A DNA stretch of 36,162 bases from the NCBI GenBank assembly GCA_030602565.1, contig JAUVZL010000027.1:1-36162 (forward strand), given 5' to 3'. A program made the position numbers and the translations under genes. The DNA comes from Candidatus Stahliibacteriota bacterium (GTDB lineage: Bacteria; Hydrothermota; Tepidihabitantia; SM23-42). Shown piece by piece: positions 4,080 through 16,212 of the stretch; position 1 is the stretch's first letter; each line of letters opens with the position of its first letter. The notes beneath the pieces are model-generated. The model had not been told where the DNA came from and searched no databases. It was given only the letters and a program-made list of their open reading frames with translations.

Positions 4080-4373
4080 TTATTGAGTGTTCCCAGAACC
4101 CGTTTTCTTAATATGTAAACCGGGCTCCTGTCTGATAACGACCTGTGTCTTGAACCTCAAGTCAACAACACATGGACCTTGAAGCTCAAGCAGGTTCAAT
4201 GATTCTATTAAATGCTTTCTTTTCTTTAAATCATGCACCCCTAACATAAATTCAATACCTTTGTACTCGACTATCCCCTCCTCCTGTGAAATAATCCTCG
4301 CTTGAGGGATAACTTGCTCAAGGGTTATGTAAGTCTCTCTTGTCTTTGCTATCTGTACAACGACGATAACCAT
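4080..4373 (-). CDS. ftsQ: Very short FtsQ/DivIB-like protein
   Basis: 97 residues from the ATG at 4373. The open frame runs further upstream: a start at ATT 4409 or 4412, just after GGAGG (4417-4421), would give a 109-110 residue protein beginning I-K-L-I-A-S-A and complete a membrane helix (AIVIVIMVIVVV). The last 50 residues, with VVDLRFKTQVVIR, match the C-terminal end of the FtsQ/DivIB beta domain. Typical FtsQ is about 250 residues with a POTRA domain after the membrane segment; here almost all of POTRA is missing. Position between murB and ftsA is the standard ftsQ position. The ATG at 4373 has no RBS, so the non-canonical start deserves weight. Could be a reduced FtsQ or a deletion product. 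Confidence 0.65.
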   Translation of the reverse strand: MVIVVVQIAKTRETYITLEQVIPQARIISQEEGIVEYKGIEFMLGVHDLKKRKHLIESLNLLELQGPCVVDLRFKTQVVIRQEPGLHIKKTGSGNTQ

Positions 4374-4399: not shown

Positions 4400-5284
4400 T
4401 CAGTTTAATAATTTTACCTCCTCTTTAAGCATAATACCCTTTATATTCTTCACTTTTTTCTTTATTATTTTTGCTAATTCCAACACATCAGAAGCTTTGG
4501 CATGACCGCGATTTATAATGAAGTTACCGTGTTTCCTGCTAATCTCAGCATCCCCTACACTCAACCCCTTCAAACCGCAATCTTCAATCAATTTACCCGC
4601 TACATAGGGCTTGATATTTTTGAAATATGACCCTGCTGAATACCCGGTGGGTTGTCGCTGCTTGCGGTACGCCAGATTATTTCTAATCTCCGTGGTGATG
4701 TCCCAATGCTTTCTACGGGTCAGCTTGAGCTCAGCCGAAAGAATTACCACTCCATCTTTGATCTTAGTCTGACGATAACCGAATCTAATCTCTCGATTAC
4801 TCAACCTGCTGATGATAACTCGGTCAGTAATCACTGTAACACCTATGACGATCTCTGCCATTGACTTACCAAAGGCACCAGCATTATCCTTTATTGCACC
4901 ACCTATCGTGCCCGGGATACCGGCGAGGAATTCAGCCCCTCCATACCCCAAACCTTTAGCTTTCTGCAAAAGGTGTTCAATTGAAAGACCGCTGCCACAG
5001 TAGAAAATATCTCCCCTTTTTTTCATGGTTCGAAAAATACCATAAAGCTTGATAATAACACCGGGAAAACCCTTATCACTTACCAGCACATTTGTGCCAC
5101 TACCGATCACATAGTACCTTATCCTCTGCTTCCTTATGATATCGAGCACCTTTTTCAAAGCACGGTGTGAATATACCTTGACTAAATATCTTGTCTTGCC
5201 GCCGATATGAAAGGATGTATGCCTGCTTAGTAACTCATTTGCCAATACGTCTACGCCAACAATGGATCTAAAAGGGTTTATCAT
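4400..5284 (-). CDS. murB: UDP-N-acetylenolpyruvoylglucosamine reductase MurB
   Basis: 294 residues. Cytoplasmic FAD enzyme that reduces UDP-GlcNAc-enolpyruvate to UDP-MurNAc with NADPH. FAD contacts in IGSGTNVLV (near 60) and in the EFLAGIPGTIGGAIKDNAG segment (near 120), catalytic-loop YRQTK, and AGSYFKN near 220 carrying the proton-donor serine, followed by the C-terminal LKEEVKLL with the conserved glutamate. Its ATG overlaps the murC stop as ATGA, suggesting translational coupling. The AGAGGAGG within its last codons is the likely ribosome binding site of the ftsQ-like gene. Confidence 0.96.
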   Translation of the reverse strand: MINPFRSIVGVDVLANELLSRHTSFHIGGKTRYLVKVYSHRALKKVLDIIRKQRIRYYVIGSGTNVLVSDKGFPGVIIKLYGIFRTMKKRGDIFYCGSGLSIEHLLQKAKGLGYGGAEFLAGIPGTIGGAIKDNAGAFGKSMAEIVIGVTVITDRVIISRLSNREIRFGYRQTKIKDGVVILSAELKLTRRKHWDITTEIRNNLAYRKQRQPTGYSAGSYFKNIKPYVAGKLIEDCGLKGLSVGDAEISRKHGNFIINRGHAKASDVLELAKIIKKKVKNIKGIMLKEEVKLLN

Positions 5285-6645
5285 GACAACTCTTTGACCA
5301 ACCTTTTTGCCAACTGGTTAATAGACCCGGCTCCTTGGATCACGATAATATCATGACGTTGGATTGTTTTCTTTAGAAAATCCACGATGTCATCAAATGC
5401 GCCGATGAAATGAACATTATCCTGCTCCTTACTTATCCTTTTGGCTAAAGCCTCACCACTAACCCCAGGGATGGGAATTTCATGTGCCCCATAGATATTT
5501 GACACAATGACAAGATCAGCATAGAGAAACGAGAAGGCGAAATTGTCGAAAAGATGGTACGTGCGTGTATAGCGATGCGGCTGAAACACCGAGATTATCC
5601 TGTTGCGTGGGAAGTATGCACGGATCGTTTCCAGGGTAACGGCGATTTCTGTTGGGTGATGCCCATAATCGTCAAAAATCTTCGTGCCTTTGACCTCACC
5701 GAGATATTCAATACGGCGATGGACCCCAACAAATTCCTTCAATGCCTTCTTTATCTTGACTACGGGGATACCGAGCTCTAACCCAATGCCGATTCCAGCA
5801 AGTGAATTACTGATATTGTGGTTACCCAACAGGTTGATCTTAAACCTGCCCACCAGCTTATTCTGATATGTGACATTAAACATGCAACCAGTACTGCTCT
5901 TTGTTACTTTCTCGGCTCTGAACTCAGCCCGTTCGTTAAATCCATAAGTTATCGTCCTTCTATAGATGCTATCCTTTATCTCAAAGCTACCCGGTGAATC
6001 CACGCCTAAGAACGTGCACCCCCAGAACGGTATATGGTTCGCGAAATAACAGAAGTGCTCTTTTATCTCATCCAGATCTTTGTAGTGATCAAGATGTTCA
6101 GCCTCAATATTAGAAATCACCGTATATGATGGATAAAGACGCAGAAATGATTTATCCGATTCATCTGCTTCGCACACCAAATAATTACCCTTACCGAACT
6201 TCGCCTGGCTCTTTCCTTTTATTATACCACCGACAACAGTCGTCGGCATCAATCCACCCTTTTCCAACACTTCGTCGACAATCGATGTTATCGTTGTCTT
6301 ACCATGGGTACCAGAAATACAAATAGCGATTTTCATTCTTGTTAATTCAGCAAGCAATTCACCACGATGTATAGTTGGAATATTTATCCTCCTCGCCTCA
6401 GCAAGCTCAGGGTTATCTCTTTTTATCGCGGTGGAATAGACCACAACATCCGCACCTGAGATATTTTCCTTGCTATGTTTATAAATCAACTTAATGGACA
6501 TCTTTTCCAGAAGATGCGTTATCTCAGAACGAACAAGGTCAGATCCAGTAACTTTGAATTTCAAATTACGCAGGACAATAGCCAAACCACTCATCCCTAT
6601 GCCGCCTATGCCCACAAAATGAATATGTTTAGTTTTCCCAAACAC
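5281..6645 (-). CDS. murC: UDP-N-acetylmuramate--L-alanine ligase MurC
   Basis: 454 residues. ATP-dependent ligase adding the first residue, L-alanine, to UDP-MurNAc in the cytoplasm. N-terminal Rossmann motif HFVGIGGIGMSG (residues 9-20) binds UDP, the P-loop SGTHGKTT is near 110, followed by the DESDKSFL and HHPTE segments typical of MurC. The start is GTG at 6645, preceded by AAGGAG at 7-nt spacing; upstream lies only the murG stump, whose stop overlaps this start by 17 bp. Couples to murB by ATGA. Confidence 0.96.
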   Translation of the reverse strand: MFGKTKHIHFVGIGGIGMSGLAIVLRNLKFKVTGSDLVRSEITHLLEKMSIKLIYKHSKENISGADVVVYSTAIKRDNPELAEARRINIPTIHRGELLAELTRMKIAICISGTHGKTTITSIVDEVLEKGGLMPTTVVGGIIKGKSQAKFGKGNYLVCEADESDKSFLRLYPSYTVISNIEAEHLDHYKDLDEIKEHFCYFANHIPFWGCTFLGVDSPGSFEIKDSIYRRTITYGFNERAEFRAEKVTKSSTGCMFNVTYQNKLVGRFKINLLGNHNISNSLAGIGIGLELGIPVVKIKKALKEFVGVHRRIEYLGEVKGTKIFDDYGHHPTEIAVTLETIRAYFPRNRIISVFQPHRYTRTYHLFDNFAFSFLYADLVIVSNIYGAHEIPIPGVSGEALAKRISKEQDNVHFIGAFDDIVDFLKKTIQRHDIIVIQGAGSINQLAKRLVKELS

Positions 6646-6793
6646 TACGTGTCTCCTTCAAAACCACATCGGCAATTCGCTTCTCTGCATCCCAGATAAT
6701 GTCGGGTTTTCTTCTACGAGTAGCCAAAAGCTCGGTTATTTTCTCAACAATCTTTTTGCCTGTCACCTGTTCCTGCCGCAGAACCACCTTCAT
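6629..6793 (-). pseudogene. murG: murG remnant: C-terminal ~50 codons only
   Basis: 54 residues starting at an ATG that forms an ATGA overlap with the ftsW stop. The sequence VVLRQEQVTGKKIVEKI followed by a basic stretch and AEKRIADVVL matches the extreme C-terminus of MurG, the glycosyltransferase that makes lipid II. The whole N-terminal domain with its glycine-rich loops and most of the C-terminal UDP-GlcNAc domain (roughly 300 residues) are missing, yet start codon, frame and stop are intact, as if an in-frame internal deletion had removed the middle. It lies exactly where murG belongs, between ftsW and murC. It cannot be active as MurG. Either a functional copy is elsewhere, or the deletion is an assembly artefact. 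Confidence 0.7.
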
Positions 6794-7860
6794 ACAACCC
6801 GTTTCCTTGAAGCTTGAAGAATTACTCCCATGGCAAACAGGTTTGCCACAAGTGACCAACCACCAAATGAAATAAATGGCAGCGGTACGCCGGTCGGCGG
6901 TAAAAGTCCAATACTAACGCCAACATGAACGAGGAAAATAATGAATATCGAAGTATTCAACCCCAAGACAAGCAATTTTGTGAAATCATCGTCAAGGTTA
7001 CCAGCAATGAAAAGGCCACGGAAAAAGATCTGCCAATAAAGAACGAAAACAACAAAACTGCCAAGAAAACCAAATTCCTCAGCAATGTGTGCAAATATGA
7101 AATCATTGTGTATGCGTGGCAGGAATAGGAACTTCTGCAAACCGGCACCAGGACCCTTCCCAAAAAACCCGCCAGAACCAATAGCAATGAGCGATTGCTG
7201 CACCTGATAGACTGGATTCGTCAGGAAACCGGTAAGCCGATACTTGACATGTGGAAAAACAAGGACAAAGATCGCAAGCATGACCAGGCTAATCGCCAAC
7301 GTTGGGAATACTAACTTTAACTTTGTACTTCCATAAATAAGCATAGCCGTAATCACAAGAAGACATATAACCGCCATCGAAATCGATGGCTGAATTGCAA
7401 CCAGTAGAATAACAAAAAGGCAAAGCACAATGGTGGTCAGCATACCCGAACGAGTATTTGCAGTTTGTGGATGAGAATCAAAGAAATTAGCCAAGAAGAA
7501 AACAAGCCAAATCCGCACGAACTCAGAAATTTGGAGACCAAATGAGGAGAGTAACGATATAGAACGTCGTGCCCCGTATTGAACACGCCCGGCTAATAGG
7601 GTAGCAAATAAGACAATAAAAATAAAAATAAAAATAGGAAAAATCAGTTTTCTTATAATCTCATATGGAAAAAATAAACCCAATGCAAAGAATATGCTCG
7701 CGATAGCAAGCCGCTTGAGGTGACCCAACAGATAAAATGCTGAATCCTCACCACGGCGCATCGCGCGGTAATACGATGATGAGTACACAAATACTGACCC
7801 AAGAACAACAAGAGCCAACAAGCAGAATGCTAATGTTCGATCAATCCTTTTGGACTGCAT
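6790..7860 (-). CDS. ftsW: FtsW/RodA-family peptidoglycan polymerase (SEDS)
   Basis: 356 residues from ATG 7860 (MQSKRIDRT), with GGAGAGG upstream; an in-frame ATG at 7914 lies well inside murD and is less likely. SEDS proteins polymerise lipid II into septal glycan with their partner PBP. About ten hydrophobic segments; motifs include VQYGARRSI, the GPGAGLQKFLFLPRIHNDF loop with the conserved GxG, and AEEFGFLG. The end shows PLPFISFGGWSLV. Operon position after murD and before the murG stump favours FtsW over RodA. Overlaps murD by 20 bp. Confidence 0.93.
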   Translation of the reverse strand: MQSKRIDRTLAFCLLALVVLGSVFVYSSSYYRAMRRGEDSAFYLLGHLKRLAIASIFFALGLFFPYEIIRKLIFPIFIFIFIVLFATLLAGRVQYGARRSISLLSSFGLQISEFVRIWLVFFLANFFDSHPQTANTRSGMLTTIVLCLFVILLVAIQPSISMAVICLLVITAMLIYGSTKLKLVFPTLAISLVMLAIFVLVFPHVKYRLTGFLTNPVYQVQQSLIAIGSGGFFGKGPGAGLQKFLFLPRIHNDFIFAHIAEEFGFLGSFVVFVLYWQIFFRGLFIAGNLDDDFTKLLVLGLNTSIFIIFLVHVGVSIGLLPPTGVPLPFISFGGWSLVANLFAMGVILQASRKRVV

Positions 7861-9142
7861 TTTTAAATGCCTCTCCTCGATCTGCAAAATTGGTGAAGTA
7901 GTCAAAAGAAGCAAAACCTGGGTTCAAAAGGATTGTATCACCCCCTGCAGCAAATTGTCTAGCCTTTACCAGCGCATCATCCATACTATTGGCAACGGTA
8001 AAAGCCGCAAATCCTTTCATTTCAAAAAAATTGGCAATGTACGCCGCGTTTTCGCCAAGTATAACACACGCTTTGGCTTCCTTAGCCAAGACTAAGAGGT
8101 AATCCTCGGCTTTATCACCTTTCTGTTTACCGCCAACAATGACAATTTTAGGTCCTTTTATTGCTTTAAACGAAGCAATTGCCGCAATTTCATTCGTACA
8201 CATTGAGTTGTTAACATGTCTTACACCTTGTATTATACCAACCTCTTCGAGACGATGTGGTAACGGCTCAAAAGTCATCAACCCTTTCTCGATTTTACTG
8301 TTATCGATCCCAAGAATCTTTGCCACAGCAATTGCCGCCAAGGCGTTCATCTTATTGTGCTCACCTTCCAAACGAAGTTTCTCAACCGGGAATAGTTTTT
8401 CCTGGGCATAAGCGAACATGTCGTTGAACCAGGCTCCAGTGTGCGCGTGGGAACCGAAAAAGACGATTTGCGACCTGATGTCATTCAGCGACCGTTTGAT
8501 ATTGCTATCATCTTTGTTCAAGACAGCATAGTCTGATTTTTCTTGATTGAGGAAAATACGCAGTTTCGCAGTTCGATATTCCTCAAAGTTTCGATGCCAA
8601 TTTAGATGATCCTTTGAGATATTTGTAAGTACTGCGATGTAGGGGTGGAATTTCTCAATCCGCGTCAATTGAAAGGATGATATTTCCAAAACGTAGTAGT
8701 CAAAAGTTTCCGCAGAAAGAGATCTTGAAAATGGTCTGCCCGGGGAGATATTACCGCCAAGAAAATTCCTTACATTAGCAGAACTCAGGATATTGCTGAT
8801 TATCGAAGCCGTAGTGCTTTTGCCGTTAGTTCCGGTTACGGCAATGATCTTGGGTTCGTTAAGCTGTTGGTAGGTGAATTCAATCTCATCGATTATCGGT
8901 ATTCCCTTGGTGCGCAACTTTTTTATGATTTCATTTTGCTCAGGAAAACCTGGCGACGTAACTGCCAAATCGTAATTATTTCGGCGATAGTTTTTGATAT
9001 TACCTTTTTCTATAAGCTCACGTGCAGTATCTGAAATCATGTTGATATTCTCTTCGTACAAGTACAAATCACATCCCTGGTTTACCAGGAATTCAGCGAC
9101 TGCAAGGTTTGCGCGACCAAGACCTAACAAAAGTATTTTCAT
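7841..9142 (-). CDS. murD: UDP-N-acetylmuramoyl-L-alanine--D-glutamate ligase MurD
   Basis: 433 residues. Cytoplasmic ligase adding D-glutamate to UDP-MurNAc-L-Ala. N-terminal GLGRANLAVAEFL binds UDP, P-loop AVTGTNGKSTT near residue 105, EISSFQL near 155, C-terminal RGEAFKNAV typical of MurD. Two normally conserved sites differ: the DSKATN-type motif, whose lysine contacts substrate in the E. coli enzyme, reads NSMCTN, and the SPxxASFD motif reads NPGFASFD. These suggest a divergent MurD subfamily rather than loss of function. Separated from mraY by a 185-bp repeat-rich gap, so it may have its own promoter, though none is obvious. Confidence 0.93.
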   Translation of the reverse strand: MKILLLGLGRANLAVAEFLVNQGCDLYLYEENINMISDTARELIEKGNIKNYRRNNYDLAVTSPGFPEQNEIIKKLRTKGIPIIDEIEFTYQQLNEPKIIAVTGTNGKSTTASIISNILSSANVRNFLGGNISPGRPFSRSLSAETFDYYVLEISSFQLTRIEKFHPYIAVLTNISKDHLNWHRNFEEYRTAKLRIFLNQEKSDYAVLNKDDSNIKRSLNDIRSQIVFFGSHAHTGAWFNDMFAYAQEKLFPVEKLRLEGEHNKMNALAAIAVAKILGIDNSKIEKGLMTFEPLPHRLEEVGIIQGVRHVNNSMCTNEIAAIASFKAIKGPKIVIVGGKQKGDKAEDYLLVLAKEAKACVILGENAAYIANFFEMKGFAAFTVANSMDDALVKARQFAAGGDTILLNPGFASFDYFTNFADRGEAFKNAVQKD

Positions 9143-9327
9143 CTCTTATAAGTAAAAAGTAGAAAATAAAGAAACGTATTCGTGATTCGTATTTCGTATT
9201 CGTAGTTTGTTATTTTGGTTTAGACATTCATCCACGCCCATCGCAGATGAGCGGGATTCATCCACGCCCATCGCAGATGAGCGGGATTCATCTGAAATTT
9301 GTAATTTGTAATTTGACATTCTTCTCC
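9143..9327. repeat. Repeat-filled gap between mraY and murD, with a 30-bp tandem duplication
   Basis: Two exact copies of a 30-bp unit (9226-9255, 9256-9285) followed by 7 bases of a third. Each unit contains a small hairpin (CATC-GCA-GATG) and ends in GCGGG. On one side are CGTATTCGTGATTCG-like words (9175-9205), on the other ATTTGTAATTTGTAATTTG. No coding potential seen. This is the only large break inside the tightly packed division cluster. Confidence 0.8.
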
Positions 9328-10413
9328 TTATCGGATCTTTAATGTAGACAAAGCGATCATCATGAAGATTATTGCCAAAATCCAGAAGCGAACGACGATC
9401 TTAGGCTCACGCAACCCGCTTAGTTCAAAATGATGGTGCAGGGGAGCCATCTTAAATAACCTCTTACCACCGGTGCATCGGAAGTATATTATCTGCAACA
9501 TCACTGATACCACCTCGATCACAAACACACCACCCACTATAATCAGAAGTATTTCCTGCTTGATAAGAATCGCTGCGGTACCGACTATTGCGCCCAAGCT
9601 AAGAGCACCCGTGTCACCCATGAAGACTTGCGCGGGATGTGAATTGAACCAAAGAAATCCAAGACTCGCTCCAAGGATTGATGCACAGAACACGGTTACT
9701 TCGCCACCTTGGGCAAGAAAGATAATATTTAGGTATTGGCTAATGCCTACATGGCCAGCCGCATAGGCTAAAGCACTATAGGCGAGCGCCGCAATACCGA
9801 TAAGACCGATCGCCAGTCCATCGAGCCCATCACTGAAATTGACACCGTTCGACGAACCCACGACAACGAACGTGACAAACAGTGGATATAGTATCGCCAA
9901 ATTAATGATATAGTTCTTAAAAAATATCAAATTGGTCTTCGTGGCATAACCTTCAGGACCATAGAAATATAGATACAACCCTAATGCCATACCATAGAGT
10001 ATTTGAAAAAAAAGCTTTGTTTTTATCGACAAACCTCTCGATTTGTTCTTGTAGATTTTTATGTAATCATCAAAAAAACCCAAAATACCAAACCATACGG
10101 TAGTAGTCAAAAGAATTATGATATTGGGGTTGGTCAGGTCACAGAAAAGGAGTGAAGCAATAATTATCGACCCCAAGATCATTAGACCGCCCATCGATGG
10201 CGTACCCTGTTTAGCCTTGTGACTCTCAGGGACCACACCCCTTATTTGCTGCTTGATAGATTTTTCCTCAAGAAAAGCAATAAATCGATTACCAAAAACA
10301 AGTACAATGAGTATCGCAGCTACCGCAGCATAAGCGCTACGGAATGTTATATAGCCAAAGAGCCTAAAGGGGCCAAAAATGTCTTTTAGAGGATATAAAA
10401 GCCAATATAACAT
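9328..10413 (-). CDS. mraY: Phospho-N-acetylmuramoyl-pentapeptide transferase MraY
   Basis: 361 residues, usual size. Integral membrane enzyme that transfers phospho-MurNAc-pentapeptide from UDP to undecaprenyl phosphate, giving lipid I. Around ten hydrophobic segments. Diagnostic features: GTPSMGGLMI near 70, the aspartate pair in FFDDYIKIYK near 115, NFSDGLDGLAIG near 195 (catalytic Asp), FMGDTGALSLG near 260, and the HHHFE loop near 325. RBS GAGG precedes the ATG. Follows murF by 30 bp. Confidence 0.97.
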   Translation of the reverse strand: MLYWLLYPLKDIFGPFRLFGYITFRSAYAAVAAILIVLVFGNRFIAFLEEKSIKQQIRGVVPESHKAKQGTPSMGGLMILGSIIIASLLFCDLTNPNIIILLTTTVWFGILGFFDDYIKIYKNKSRGLSIKTKLFFQILYGMALGLYLYFYGPEGYATKTNLIFFKNYIINLAILYPLFVTFVVVGSSNGVNFSDGLDGLAIGLIGIAALAYSALAYAAGHVGISQYLNIIFLAQGGEVTVFCASILGASLGFLWFNSHPAQVFMGDTGALSLGAIVGTAAILIKQEILLIIVGGVFVIEVVSVMLQIIYFRCTGGKRLFKMAPLHHHFELSGLREPKIVVRFWILAIIFMMIALSTLKIR

Positions 10414-10443: not shown

Positions 10444-11706
10444 TCATAATAACCTCAATAGTTCTTCCACAATGTATTCAAAATGCAGTGCCCTTGATGC
10501 CTTAACCAAAACCGCTTCTTCGCCATTGAGATTTTTAATCAGATATCTAACAAGCCCTTGCTTATCATCAAAGTGCTTCCCGTGATAGATTTTTGATTGT
10601 TCGCCATAGGAAAGTAATAAATCACACTGGTCCCGTGCATAATCGCCGATCTCCTTGTGCAGGTCAGCAGATTGTTTACCCAACTCCAGCATATCGCCCA
10701 AGACAAATATTTTGCGACGTGGAAGTCCAGTTGTGAAATCGATCGCCGCCCTCATAGAAAATGGGTTTGCATTGTACGTATCATTTACTACAAATATCCC
10801 CTCTCGGTAGATAGGTTCTAGCCTACCTGTTGCCGGTTTTATCTGCTCAAGCGCCGTACGTTGAACGTCATATGTCACACCAAGTTTTGTACATATACAT
10901 ATGGCTGCCAGACAGTTCATGACATTACTTATACTGAGAAGAGGGGTAAAGAACACATGCTCATCAAAAACAAAATGTGAACCGAACTCGGTCAACTGGA
11001 TATCGGAAAGCATGTTAATGCTGAAACTTGTGACGTTACTTAGACCAACATCACCAACCCCCTCACCGACTATTCCAAAACCGTCCTTGGGCAGTGCTTT
11101 AATCAGGGATAATTTCTCCTCCCTGACACCATGCATTGAACCGAGTCCTTCTAAATGTCCGGGTCCGATCGTCGTGATAACACCGATATCCGGCTCAGCG
11201 ATTTCACACAGCCGTTGGATTTCACCGGGGCTACTTGTACCCATTTCGACAATAAGGTATTCTTCATCACCGGATAAATCCAACAAAGTCAGCGGCAGAC
11301 CAATCAATGAATTGTAATTCCTTTTAGTAATTAGAATTCTATGTTCGCTCCCCAAGATTGCTCCAATCAAATTTCTTACGGTTGTTTTACCATTTGTGCC
11401 CGTAATCGCAATTGTTTTTGGGTCAAACGCTCCCCGATATTTCTTTGCCAATTGTCCAAGCGCAAACAGTGTATCAGCAACCGTAATGTGTTTTTCAATA
11501 CCCTTACCGTGTTCAACGACCACTGCAACCGCACCGTTCTGCAGTGCCTCAGATACGAAATGATGACCGTCTGTATGTTCACCCTTCAAGGCAAAGAACA
11601 GATCACCGGGCTTTGTGACCATTGAATTGATGGACACACCGCGTACCAGATCGCGACCGTCCAGTGCAGTCCTACCGTTGATCATCGCGGCAACGCTGCG
11701 AATCAT
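10444..11706 (-). CDS. murF: UDP-N-acetylmuramoyl-tripeptide--D-alanyl-D-alanine ligase MurF
   Basis: About 420 residues. ATP-dependent cytoplasmic ligase adding D-Ala-D-Ala to the tripeptide precursor. P-loop AITGTNGKTTVRN near residue 105, IVEMGTSSPGEI near 155, NDTYNANPFSMRAA near 325, a strong MurF signature, and LGDMLELG. Start placed at ATG 11706, which overlaps the murE stop as ATGA; an in-frame ATG five codons upstream (11721) is possible but extends into murE without a better RBS. No ddl gene accompanies it here. Confidence 0.95.
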   Translation of the reverse strand: MIRSVAAMINGRTALDGRDLVRGVSINSMVTKPGDLFFALKGEHTDGHHFVSEALQNGAVAVVVEHGKGIEKHITVADTLFALGQLAKKYRGAFDPKTIAITGTNGKTTVRNLIGAILGSEHRILITKRNYNSLIGLPLTLLDLSGDEEYLIVEMGTSSPGEIQRLCEIAEPDIGVITTIGPGHLEGLGSMHGVREEKLSLIKALPKDGFGIVGEGVGDVGLSNVTSFSINMLSDIQLTEFGSHFVFDEHVFFTPLLSISNVMNCLAAICICTKLGVTYDVQRTALEQIKPATGRLEPIYREGIFVVNDTYNANPFSMRAAIDFTTGLPRRKIFVLGDMLELGKQSADLHKEIGDYARDQCDLLLSYGEQSKIYHGKHFDDKQGLVRYLIKNLNGEEAVLVKASRALHFEYIVEELLRLL

Positions 11707-13124
11707 AAACTCTCGGTGCATTCCCGGATAACCTCAGCATCATCGAATTTCAATACCCTGTTACCAATGATCTGATAATCTTCATGGCCTTTACCAGCGA
11801 TAAGAAGTATGTCCTCAGCTTGCTTTTTCATAATTGCCTGCTTGATCGCGGTTCGGCGATCTTCAATAACTTCATACTGCTCACTTGTAACCCCCTTAAT
11901 GATGTCCTCTATGATGCGCCCTGGAGGTTCGCGGCGCGGATTATCCGTTGTTATAATCGTGAAATCAGCAAGGCTTGTTGCCGCGGCTGCCATTTTTGGA
12001 CGTTTATCTTTGTCGCGATCGCCGCCGCAACCAAAGACGACAAGAAGCTTACCTTGTGCATAACGTTTTAATGAACTCAAGGCATTCTCAATAGCCAATG
12101 GGGTATGTGCGTAATCAATGAATATATTATCAGTCACCCGTTCCATCCTCCCTTTTATGCTAGTGATTTTCGCGATACCTTGAACAATCGCATCCCGGGC
12201 AATCCCCAAAGCCACCGCCGCGGTGAAAGCAGCGAGAACATTGTAGGCATTATAAGTTCCGATTAATTTAGAGGTGACACGGTAGTTATGGTTCTGGTAA
12301 GAGATATCGAGGTTTAGTCCGTCCGCTGTATCACTTGTTATCTCGGCACCGACATCGCTTTTATTCTCCATGCCATAGGTCATAGTACGCTTCAAACCCA
12401 ATTGCTTGATATGATGACTTGTTGCATCATCCATATTAAAGACCGCACAACCGCCAGGATCGAGCAGTGAGAAAATCCTCATTTTTGCCGCACGGTAGCG
12501 GTCGATTGTCTGATGAAAATCGAGATGGTCCTGGGAGAGATTCGTGAAAACAACAACCTGGAAACGCATTTCATCAACTCTCTTCAAAGCCAGACCATGC
12601 GATGAAACCTCCATCACGATAGCTTCAGCACCATCTGTCTTGAACTCATTAATCATTCTAAAAATATCTAAACTCTCCGGCGTAGTCCTGACCGCCCTGG
12701 TCCGGGTCTTGCCGATATAGTAGATAGTCCCGATCAAACCTGTCCTTTTCCCGCTCGTTTCCAATATCGAGTGTATGAGGAAAGATGTGGTTGTCTTACC
12801 ATTGGTCCCGGTAATTGCAACCTTTGTCATATCTGCAAATGCGCCGTAAAACTGGTGAGCAAGCTTACCCAATGATGCCCTGGTGTCGGTCACGACAACC
12901 TGTGGAATATTGGCCGCCACTTTCCTCTCGGTAACAAGTGCTACTGCGCCGTTTTTGATCGCTGCTTCGACAAAATCGTGACCATCAAATCTTTCTCCTT
13001 TCATGGCAATAAACAGGGTTCCTGGTCGGACTCGTCTTGAATCGAATTCCACGGCCTCAACCTCAACCTCGGTCATCTGGTATTTCTCACCAGCAATCAT
13101 TTTGATTAGTTCACTTAACTGCAT
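11703..13124 (-). CDS. murE: UDP-MurNAc-tripeptide ligase MurE, meso-DAP type
   Basis: 473 residues. Adds the third stem residue to UDP-MurNAc-L-Ala-D-Glu. P-loop AITGTNGKTTTSF near 108, MEVSSHGLAL near 170, IDYAHTPLAIEN near 335, and TTDNPRREPPGRI near 390. The DNPR tetrapeptide is the signature of enzymes that take meso-diaminopimelate, so the peptidoglycan is inferred to be DAP-type. Overlaps the end of ftsI by 14 bp and couples to murF by ATGA. Confidence 0.97.
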   Translation of the reverse strand: MQLSELIKMIAGEKYQMTEVEVEAVEFDSRRVRPGTLFIAMKGERFDGHDFVEAAIKNGAVALVTERKVAANIPQVVVTDTRASLGKLAHQFYGAFADMTKVAITGTNGKTTTSFLIHSILETSGKRTGLIGTIYYIGKTRTRAVRTTPESLDIFRMINEFKTDGAEAIVMEVSSHGLALKRVDEMRFQVVVFTNLSQDHLDFHQTIDRYRAAKMRIFSLLDPGGCAVFNMDDATSHHIKQLGLKRTMTYGMENKSDVGAEITSDTADGLNLDISYQNHNYRVTSKLIGTYNAYNVLAAFTAAVALGIARDAIVQGIAKITSIKGRMERVTDNIFIDYAHTPLAIENALSSLKRYAQGKLLVVFGCGGDRDKDKRPKMAAAATSLADFTIITTDNPRREPPGRIIEDIIKGVTSEQYEVIEDRRTAIKQAIMKKQAEDILLIAGKGHEDYQIIGNRVLKFDDAEVIRECTESL

Positions 13125-15870: not shown

Positions 15871-16212
15871 TTACATGAAACTTTTCAGAGCAGCTCGTTT
15901 GGATGGAAATATCTCAAAGGGGTAAAAACCATACAACCTCAGAATATCATATAGATAAGGTGATACATTCACCAGCTTGATGTCGCCACCCAGTCCTTTA
16001 AATTTTTTCTGGTAATCAATCAACTGGCCGACGATCTTGTAGTTGATGTGGCTGACCCGTGAAAGGTCCAAGATTATATTGAGGTCATTTGCTTGTATCA
16101 TATTCCTGAATTGATTTTCTATTGTCCCAAATTCTTCTTCGTTTATTTCGCCGGTGGGCAAGAAGAATAAGACCTTTTTATCTTTTACCGCCTCAACGGC
16201 CTGTATTTTCAT
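15871..16212 (-). CDS. STAS-domain protein in the division cluster
   Basis: 113 residues forming one STAS (anti-sigma-factor-antagonist) domain: LNIILDLSRVSHINYKIVGQ around residues 43-62 corresponds to the core strand-loop-helix of SpoIIAA-like proteins. The serine that partner kinases phosphorylate (in DSSG) is replaced by tyrosine/lysine (INYKI), so classical partner-switching by phosphorylation looks unlikely. It begins 2 bp after the mraZ stop, with an AAGGAGG RBS formed by the last mraZ codons, so it is co-transcribed and probably co-translated. Its role is unknown; a scaffold or regulator tied to division is a guess. Confidence 0.8.
   Translation of the reverse strand: MKIQAVEAVKDKKVLFFLPTGEINEEEFGTIENQFRNMIQANDLNIILDLSRVSHINYKIVGQLIDYQKKFKGLGGDIKLVNVSPYLYDILRLYGFYPFEIFPSKRAALKSFM

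Follow-up and report, generated by a model that had tools for sequence, protein, structure and literature searches.

The murG gene of the dcw cluster in an uncultured lineage of the candidate phylum Stahlbacteria/WOR-3 has very probably been displaced by a homologue that was acquired horizontally and lies elsewhere in the genome, and its remnant can still be seen between ftsW and murC. MurG is an essential cell-wall enzyme, which transfers GlcNAc from UDP-GlcNAc onto lipid I and thereby forms lipid II. The stretch of DNA analyzed (the window) comprises 36,162 bases and corresponds to a whole contig (C50), one of the 104 in the draft assembly of the source genome (G000). All genomes used for comparison are also draft assemblies. 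The genus was represented by four genomes, namely the source genome, that of a sister species (G003) and those of two congeners (G001 and G002). At the level of the order, gene places were compared in 25 genomes and the respective sequences were read for 17 of them.

The dcw Cluster and Its murG Remnant

The dcw cluster lies on the minus strand and its gene order was found to be mraZ, a STAS-domain gene, mraW, an ftsL-like gene, ftsI, murE, murF, mraY, murD, ftsW, the murG place, murC, murB, a short ftsQ-like gene, ftsA and ftsZ. The stability of this cluster has been described as among the highest of any gene cluster (Leonard et al., 2022, PMC8871954), and its order is otherwise kept in the source genome, the murG step having left it. 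As the preliminary description had held, the remaining genes for lipid II synthesis are intact, with murB, murC, murD, murE, murF and mraY present in the window (Table 1) and murA on another contig (C51). It follows that lipid I should still be made.

Table 1. Position of the murG remnant and of the neighboring lipid II pathway and division genes in the window.
Feature	Position	Strand	Basis
ORF of the murG remnant (54 codons; start codon and C-terminal stump)	6629..6793	-	read from sequence; congener comparison
45 codons homologous to residues 308-352 of native MurG (G001)	6653..6787	-	33/45 identical, E 7e-21
AAGGAG, Shine-Dalgarno-like, 7 nt before the murC GTG, inside the remnant	6653..6658	-	read directly; kept in G003; function putative
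murC, intact	5281..6645	-	TIGR01082, 485 bits
ftsW, intact	6790..7914	-	PF01098; best NCBIfam model TIGR02614 (ftsW), 267.2 bits, below the cut-off of 337.5
murD, intact	7841..9142	-	TIGR01087, 378.7 bits
mraY, intact, produces lipid I (substrate of MurG)	9328..10413	-	TIGR00445, 358.9 bits
murF and murE, intact	10444..13124	-	NCBIfam profile search
murB, intact	4400..5284	-	NF010480/TIGR00179, above cut-off

At the murG place there is a short ORF with the translation MKVVLRQEQVTGKKIVEKITELLATRRRKPDIIWDAEKRIADVVLKETRSVWEN*. A gapless alignment pairs its residues 3-47 with positions 308-352 of MurG in G001, a protein of 353 aa (73% identity). The deletion at the 6787/6788 junction has thus removed about 305 codons. 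This bears out the earlier view of a murG reduced to its start codon and a C-terminal stump, as well as its estimate of some 300 lost codons. The ATGA coupling with ftsW described earlier was also recovered, the start codon of the remnant overlapping the ftsW stop at 6790-6793, whereas the stop codon of the stump does not coincide in position with that of the congeners. The native murG of G001 and G002 ends in ..ILRDK* and is followed by a spacer of approximately 110 bp before murC, while the remnant reads past this position and terminates 17 nt inside murC (6629-6645).

When the remnant was compared with general profiles, no match was obtained in Pfam and no MurG match in NCBIfam, so that a profile search of this kind, suggested previously as a check on the stump, did not recognize it, while the match to the C-terminus of the congener MurG did. 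The sole profile match was to an M20 peptidase (0.07), which was rejected as due to chance. Judging from the sequence, the remnant is identified as a piece of murG by the same-genus comparison, general profiles being blind to so short a C-terminal piece, and the stump is to be read as a remnant and not as a MurG. Concerning the murG-murC spacer, the congeners and genus g10 (L092, L093, L097, and L098) share an element upstream of murC whose end is formed by an inverted repeat like ACCGAGCGATAGCGAGGT.

Comparison of the Deletion Across Relatives

A full murG was found between ftsW and murC in each of the 25 further genomes searched within the order, including the full-length gene of the congeners G001 and G002. 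The junction ATGAAG/GTGGTT of the source genome is common to the separately assembled G003, with which it shares 97% identity in MurC and about 96% DNA identity over the dcw region. In G003, the remnant has suffered an additional 68-bp deletion that shifts the frame, and the stretch running from the remnant ATG to the GTG of murC is thereby reduced to 80 bases.

These data bear on the earlier suggestion that the deletion might be an assembly collapse, i.e., that a full murG is present in the dcw cluster and the assembler skipped about 900 bp. The window is indeed a contig of a draft assembly in 104 pieces, which could favor such an error. However, the separate assembly of the sister species carries the same junction together with a second deletion, the two remnants have diverged instead of being identical, and a TIGR01133 search detected no other dcw-type murG anywhere in the source genome. 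Given the shared junction and the further 68-bp deletion of G003, the stump is real and a collapse is excluded in practice, its probability being negligible.

Between the two species, 8 of the 80 aligned bases of the remnant are substituted, more than the 3.6% observed for the flanking sequence (p 0.008) and close to the dS of the neighboring genes (0.08-0.16). The remnant therefore looks like a decaying pseudogene, since it diverges at approximately the synonymous (neutral) rate and is frameshifted in G003. An intact homologue occupies the same place in the relatives, and no constraint was seen on what remains.

It is rather unlikely, in our opinion, that the remnant is instead kept as a small translated relay, that is, a leader peptide or translational bridge which would hand ribosomes from ftsW to murC. 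Such a role would fit the overlaps of the ORF with ftsW (ATGA) and with murC (17 nt), the AAGGAG before murC inside the remnant, and the new ORF of G003, which after the frameshifting deletion ends in TAGTG and overlaps the murC GTG. However, the peptide is not conserved (frameshift, 10% divergence), the pattern stems from two genomes, and a chance stop near the murC start is not unlikely within 80-150 bp. A relay is compatible with the displacement of murG, to which it would be an addition, and the small ORF reaching the murC start in both species may keep murC translated.

A Complete murG on Another Contig

A whole-genome profile search revealed a complete murG on contig C27 of the source genome (positions 720-1787), in agreement with the earlier proposal that murG may have been replaced elsewhere. 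The gene scores 459.7 bits with NF009102 (cut-off 339) and 250.8-253.1 bits with TIGR01133, just above the cut-off of 250.25, and in the TIGR01133 search it was the sole good MurG of the genome. A second match, to a 402-aa protein on contig C2 (L002), was rejected, as it reached a sub-threshold 14 bits and similar extra matches occur in the congeners. The protein encoded on C27 is approximately 30% identical to typical murG products and aligns over 320-350 residues with the solved MurG structures 3s2u, 7d1i and 1f0k, consistent with a full-length two-domain GT-B enzyme. Its sequence contains GGGSAGHVTP, GGSLGA and SRAGATTLFELL..GDQILNA, which we take to be the glycine-rich loop and the motifs of the UDP-GlcNAc site. 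Since the family profiles identify the replacement, too, as a MurG, there is no need for a takeover by a different kind of transferase, which had been put forward as another option.

The same type of murG is present in G003, where its 3' end is cut by the contig end; the copy of the source genome also lies near a contig end. C27 is colinear with contig C70 of G003 over 13.2 kb at 96.3% identity, as is the case for the dcw contigs. The acquired gene itself shows 96.7% nucleotide identity between the two genomes, similar to its neighbors, and thus it must have entered before the two species split. Its dN/dS of 0.17 indicates purifying selection and, together with the identity of the contigs, shows that the gene has been inherited and constrained.

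Foreign Origin of the Acquired murG

According to profile score and tree, the C27 gene is a member of the stand-alone type-2 MurG clade (NF009102/PRK12446) of Clostridia and Bacterium UASB270. In a MurG tree of 82 rows, the acquired pair falls inside a 25-row clade with the type-2 sequences of Clostridia and UASB270 (SH-aLRT 100), with UASB270 being nearest (SH-aLRT 96). The native MurGs of the order form one clade (100) far from the acquired pair, and a topology uniting acquired and native sequences in one clade was rejected (delta lnL 94.6, p-AU 4.7e-9). At E<=1e-55, no close relative of the acquired murG was found in the other 145 of the 147 genomes of the phylum, the gene being restricted to G000 and G003. 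Relatives with 50-59% identity exist in Clostridia and UASB270, the nearest at 59%. In the Clostridia and UASB270 loci inspected, the type-2 murG is likewise a solitary gene surrounded by unrelated ones, consistent with its insertion as a self-contained unit.

Some further observations were made on the distribution of the subfamily. Bacterium UASB270 (L127/G147) carries, in addition to its type-2 MurG, a second and very different MurG-like gene, possibly a two-copy stage. On plasmid NZ_CP015440.1 of Anoxybacillus amylolyticus (L204), a type-2 MurG adjoins murF, polysaccharide genes and a gene for a D-Ala-D-Ala ligase, and a gene cluster for a circular bacteriocin lies nearby, a context in which mobile MurG may be connected with tolerance to compounds that act on the cell wall. 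Plasmid NZ_AP026868.1 of Aureispira anguillae (Bacteroidota; L206) bears a type-2 MurG together with a ParA gene, and the subfamily has thus reached further phyla. Other candidates for evidence of mobility were set aside: a Legionella "plasmid" with a type-2 MurG also carries mreBCD, ppsA and nadC and may be chromosomal, while the matches in phage collections are unannotated fecal contigs. As for a parallel loss from the dcw cluster in Clostridia, murD and murG are not adjacent there where contigs allow comparison, and this comparison is therefore silent on displacement.

Insertion Site

The acquired murG starts 12 bp after the stop codon of an S9-peptidase gene, which is native, being 90% identical in G001 and G002. 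In six relatives (G001, G002, G012, G016, G005, and G004), the S9 gene is followed by a flavodoxin gene. The flavodoxin gene of the congeners was not found in G000 and G003 at E<=1e-10, and the threonine-dehydrogenase block located further downstream in G002 lies on other contigs in both genomes; in G000 this block adjoins genes resembling a type I restriction system. The acquisition was thus accompanied or followed by a rearrangement behind murG. The contigs of both G000 and G003 end in this region, before the far end of the insertion.

The native surroundings of the gene also bear on whether C27 could be a contaminant, in which case the organism would lack murG and either have no peptidoglycan or rely on an unrelated transferase. 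The estimated contamination of the source assembly (2.6%) and the foreign clade of the acquired murG point in that direction. Against this, murG directly follows an S9 gene shared with the congeners, C27 matches its counterpart in G003 to the same degree as the dcw contig does, two genomes agree, and murA-F and mraY have been kept. We thus consider contamination extremely improbable.

Proposed Course of the Displacement

The most likely order of events is gain, redundancy, deletion and decay. A stand-alone type-2 murG of the Clostridia kind would initially have been acquired horizontally in the common ancestor of the source species and G003 and inserted behind the S9-peptidase gene, making the dcw murG redundant. 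The native gene would subsequently have lost about 305 codons in one deletion, extending from just after the start codon into the C-terminal region, and its remnant would since have been decaying at the neutral rate. We infer that gain preceded loss from the fact that murG is essential; within the order, no species with both murG copies was encountered. At the old site, the ATGA junction and the murC ribosome-binding site persist, and translation of the downstream genes would thus still have been possible after the deletion. As far as can be predicted from sequence, the acquired enzyme would be catalytically active, adding GlcNAc to the lipid I supplied by the intact MraY, and would suffice for the formation of lipid II.

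Relation to Known Systems

A laboratory precedent is offered by MglA of Kitasatospora viridifaciens, a murG homologue outside the dcw cluster that is 31% identical to MurG and can replace the dcw murG, the murG mutant being viable (Zhang et al., 2021, PMC8092295). In both cases a distant homologue outside the dcw cluster replaces the dcw gene. However, every strain of Streptomyces and Kitasatospora examined still possesses the canonical murG, whose loss was laboratory-made (Zhang et al., 2021, PMC8092295), whereas the loss in G000 and G003 is natural and fixed in two species. With respect to the stand-alone MurG of Clostridia and other Bacillota (NF009102/PRK12446), the C27 gene differs in being found in Stahlbacteria, where it is absent from 145 of the 147 genomes of the phylum. 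The case also qualifies as xenologous gene displacement: a foreign homologue, placed outside the native clade and both vertically inherited and constrained since its entry, is present, the native gene has been lost, and the rest of the pathway is native. It differs from in situ displacement, as the new copy resides at another locus and the old one is a remnant inside the dcw operon.

Displacement by a horizontally acquired homologue is already known, and the stand-alone MurG subfamily is recorded in databases. What is new is a specific and well-dated displacement in the dcw cluster with a visible remnant, that is, a clean example of a known process and not a new system. A diverged foreign homologue has taken over naturally, and the loss is young enough for the steps to be readable, providing a natural test of the extent to which MurG needs its native partners and its position in the cluster. 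Moreover, the case cautions against equating a dcw operon that lacks murG with a lack of peptidoglycan. A wider reading is that type-2 MurG may function as a self-sufficient lipid II synthase, travel from one phylum to another and displace the dcw murG time and again, perhaps because it confers tolerance to compounds directed at lipid I or lipid II, with the old site in the present case kept as a tiny ftsW-murC translational relay; we regard this as doubtful.

Other Features of the dcw Cluster

The STAS-domain gene (15871-16212, minus strand), situated between mraZ and mraW, is an unusual component for the first part of a dcw cluster. The spacer between mraY and murD (9143-9327) contains a direct repeat, readable as two copies of SDESRSSAMGV. 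Finally, the place of ftsQ (4080-4373, minus strand) is occupied by a very short gene of approximately 100-118 aa, if the part preceding the listed start is included, whose product has a hydrophobic stretch at its N-terminus and gave no match in Pfam. This gene was found in all eight genomes checked, including the murB-ftsA gap of L094 and L207-L212, and it thus represents a conserved small FtsQ-like protein of this family, a second truncation being excluded.
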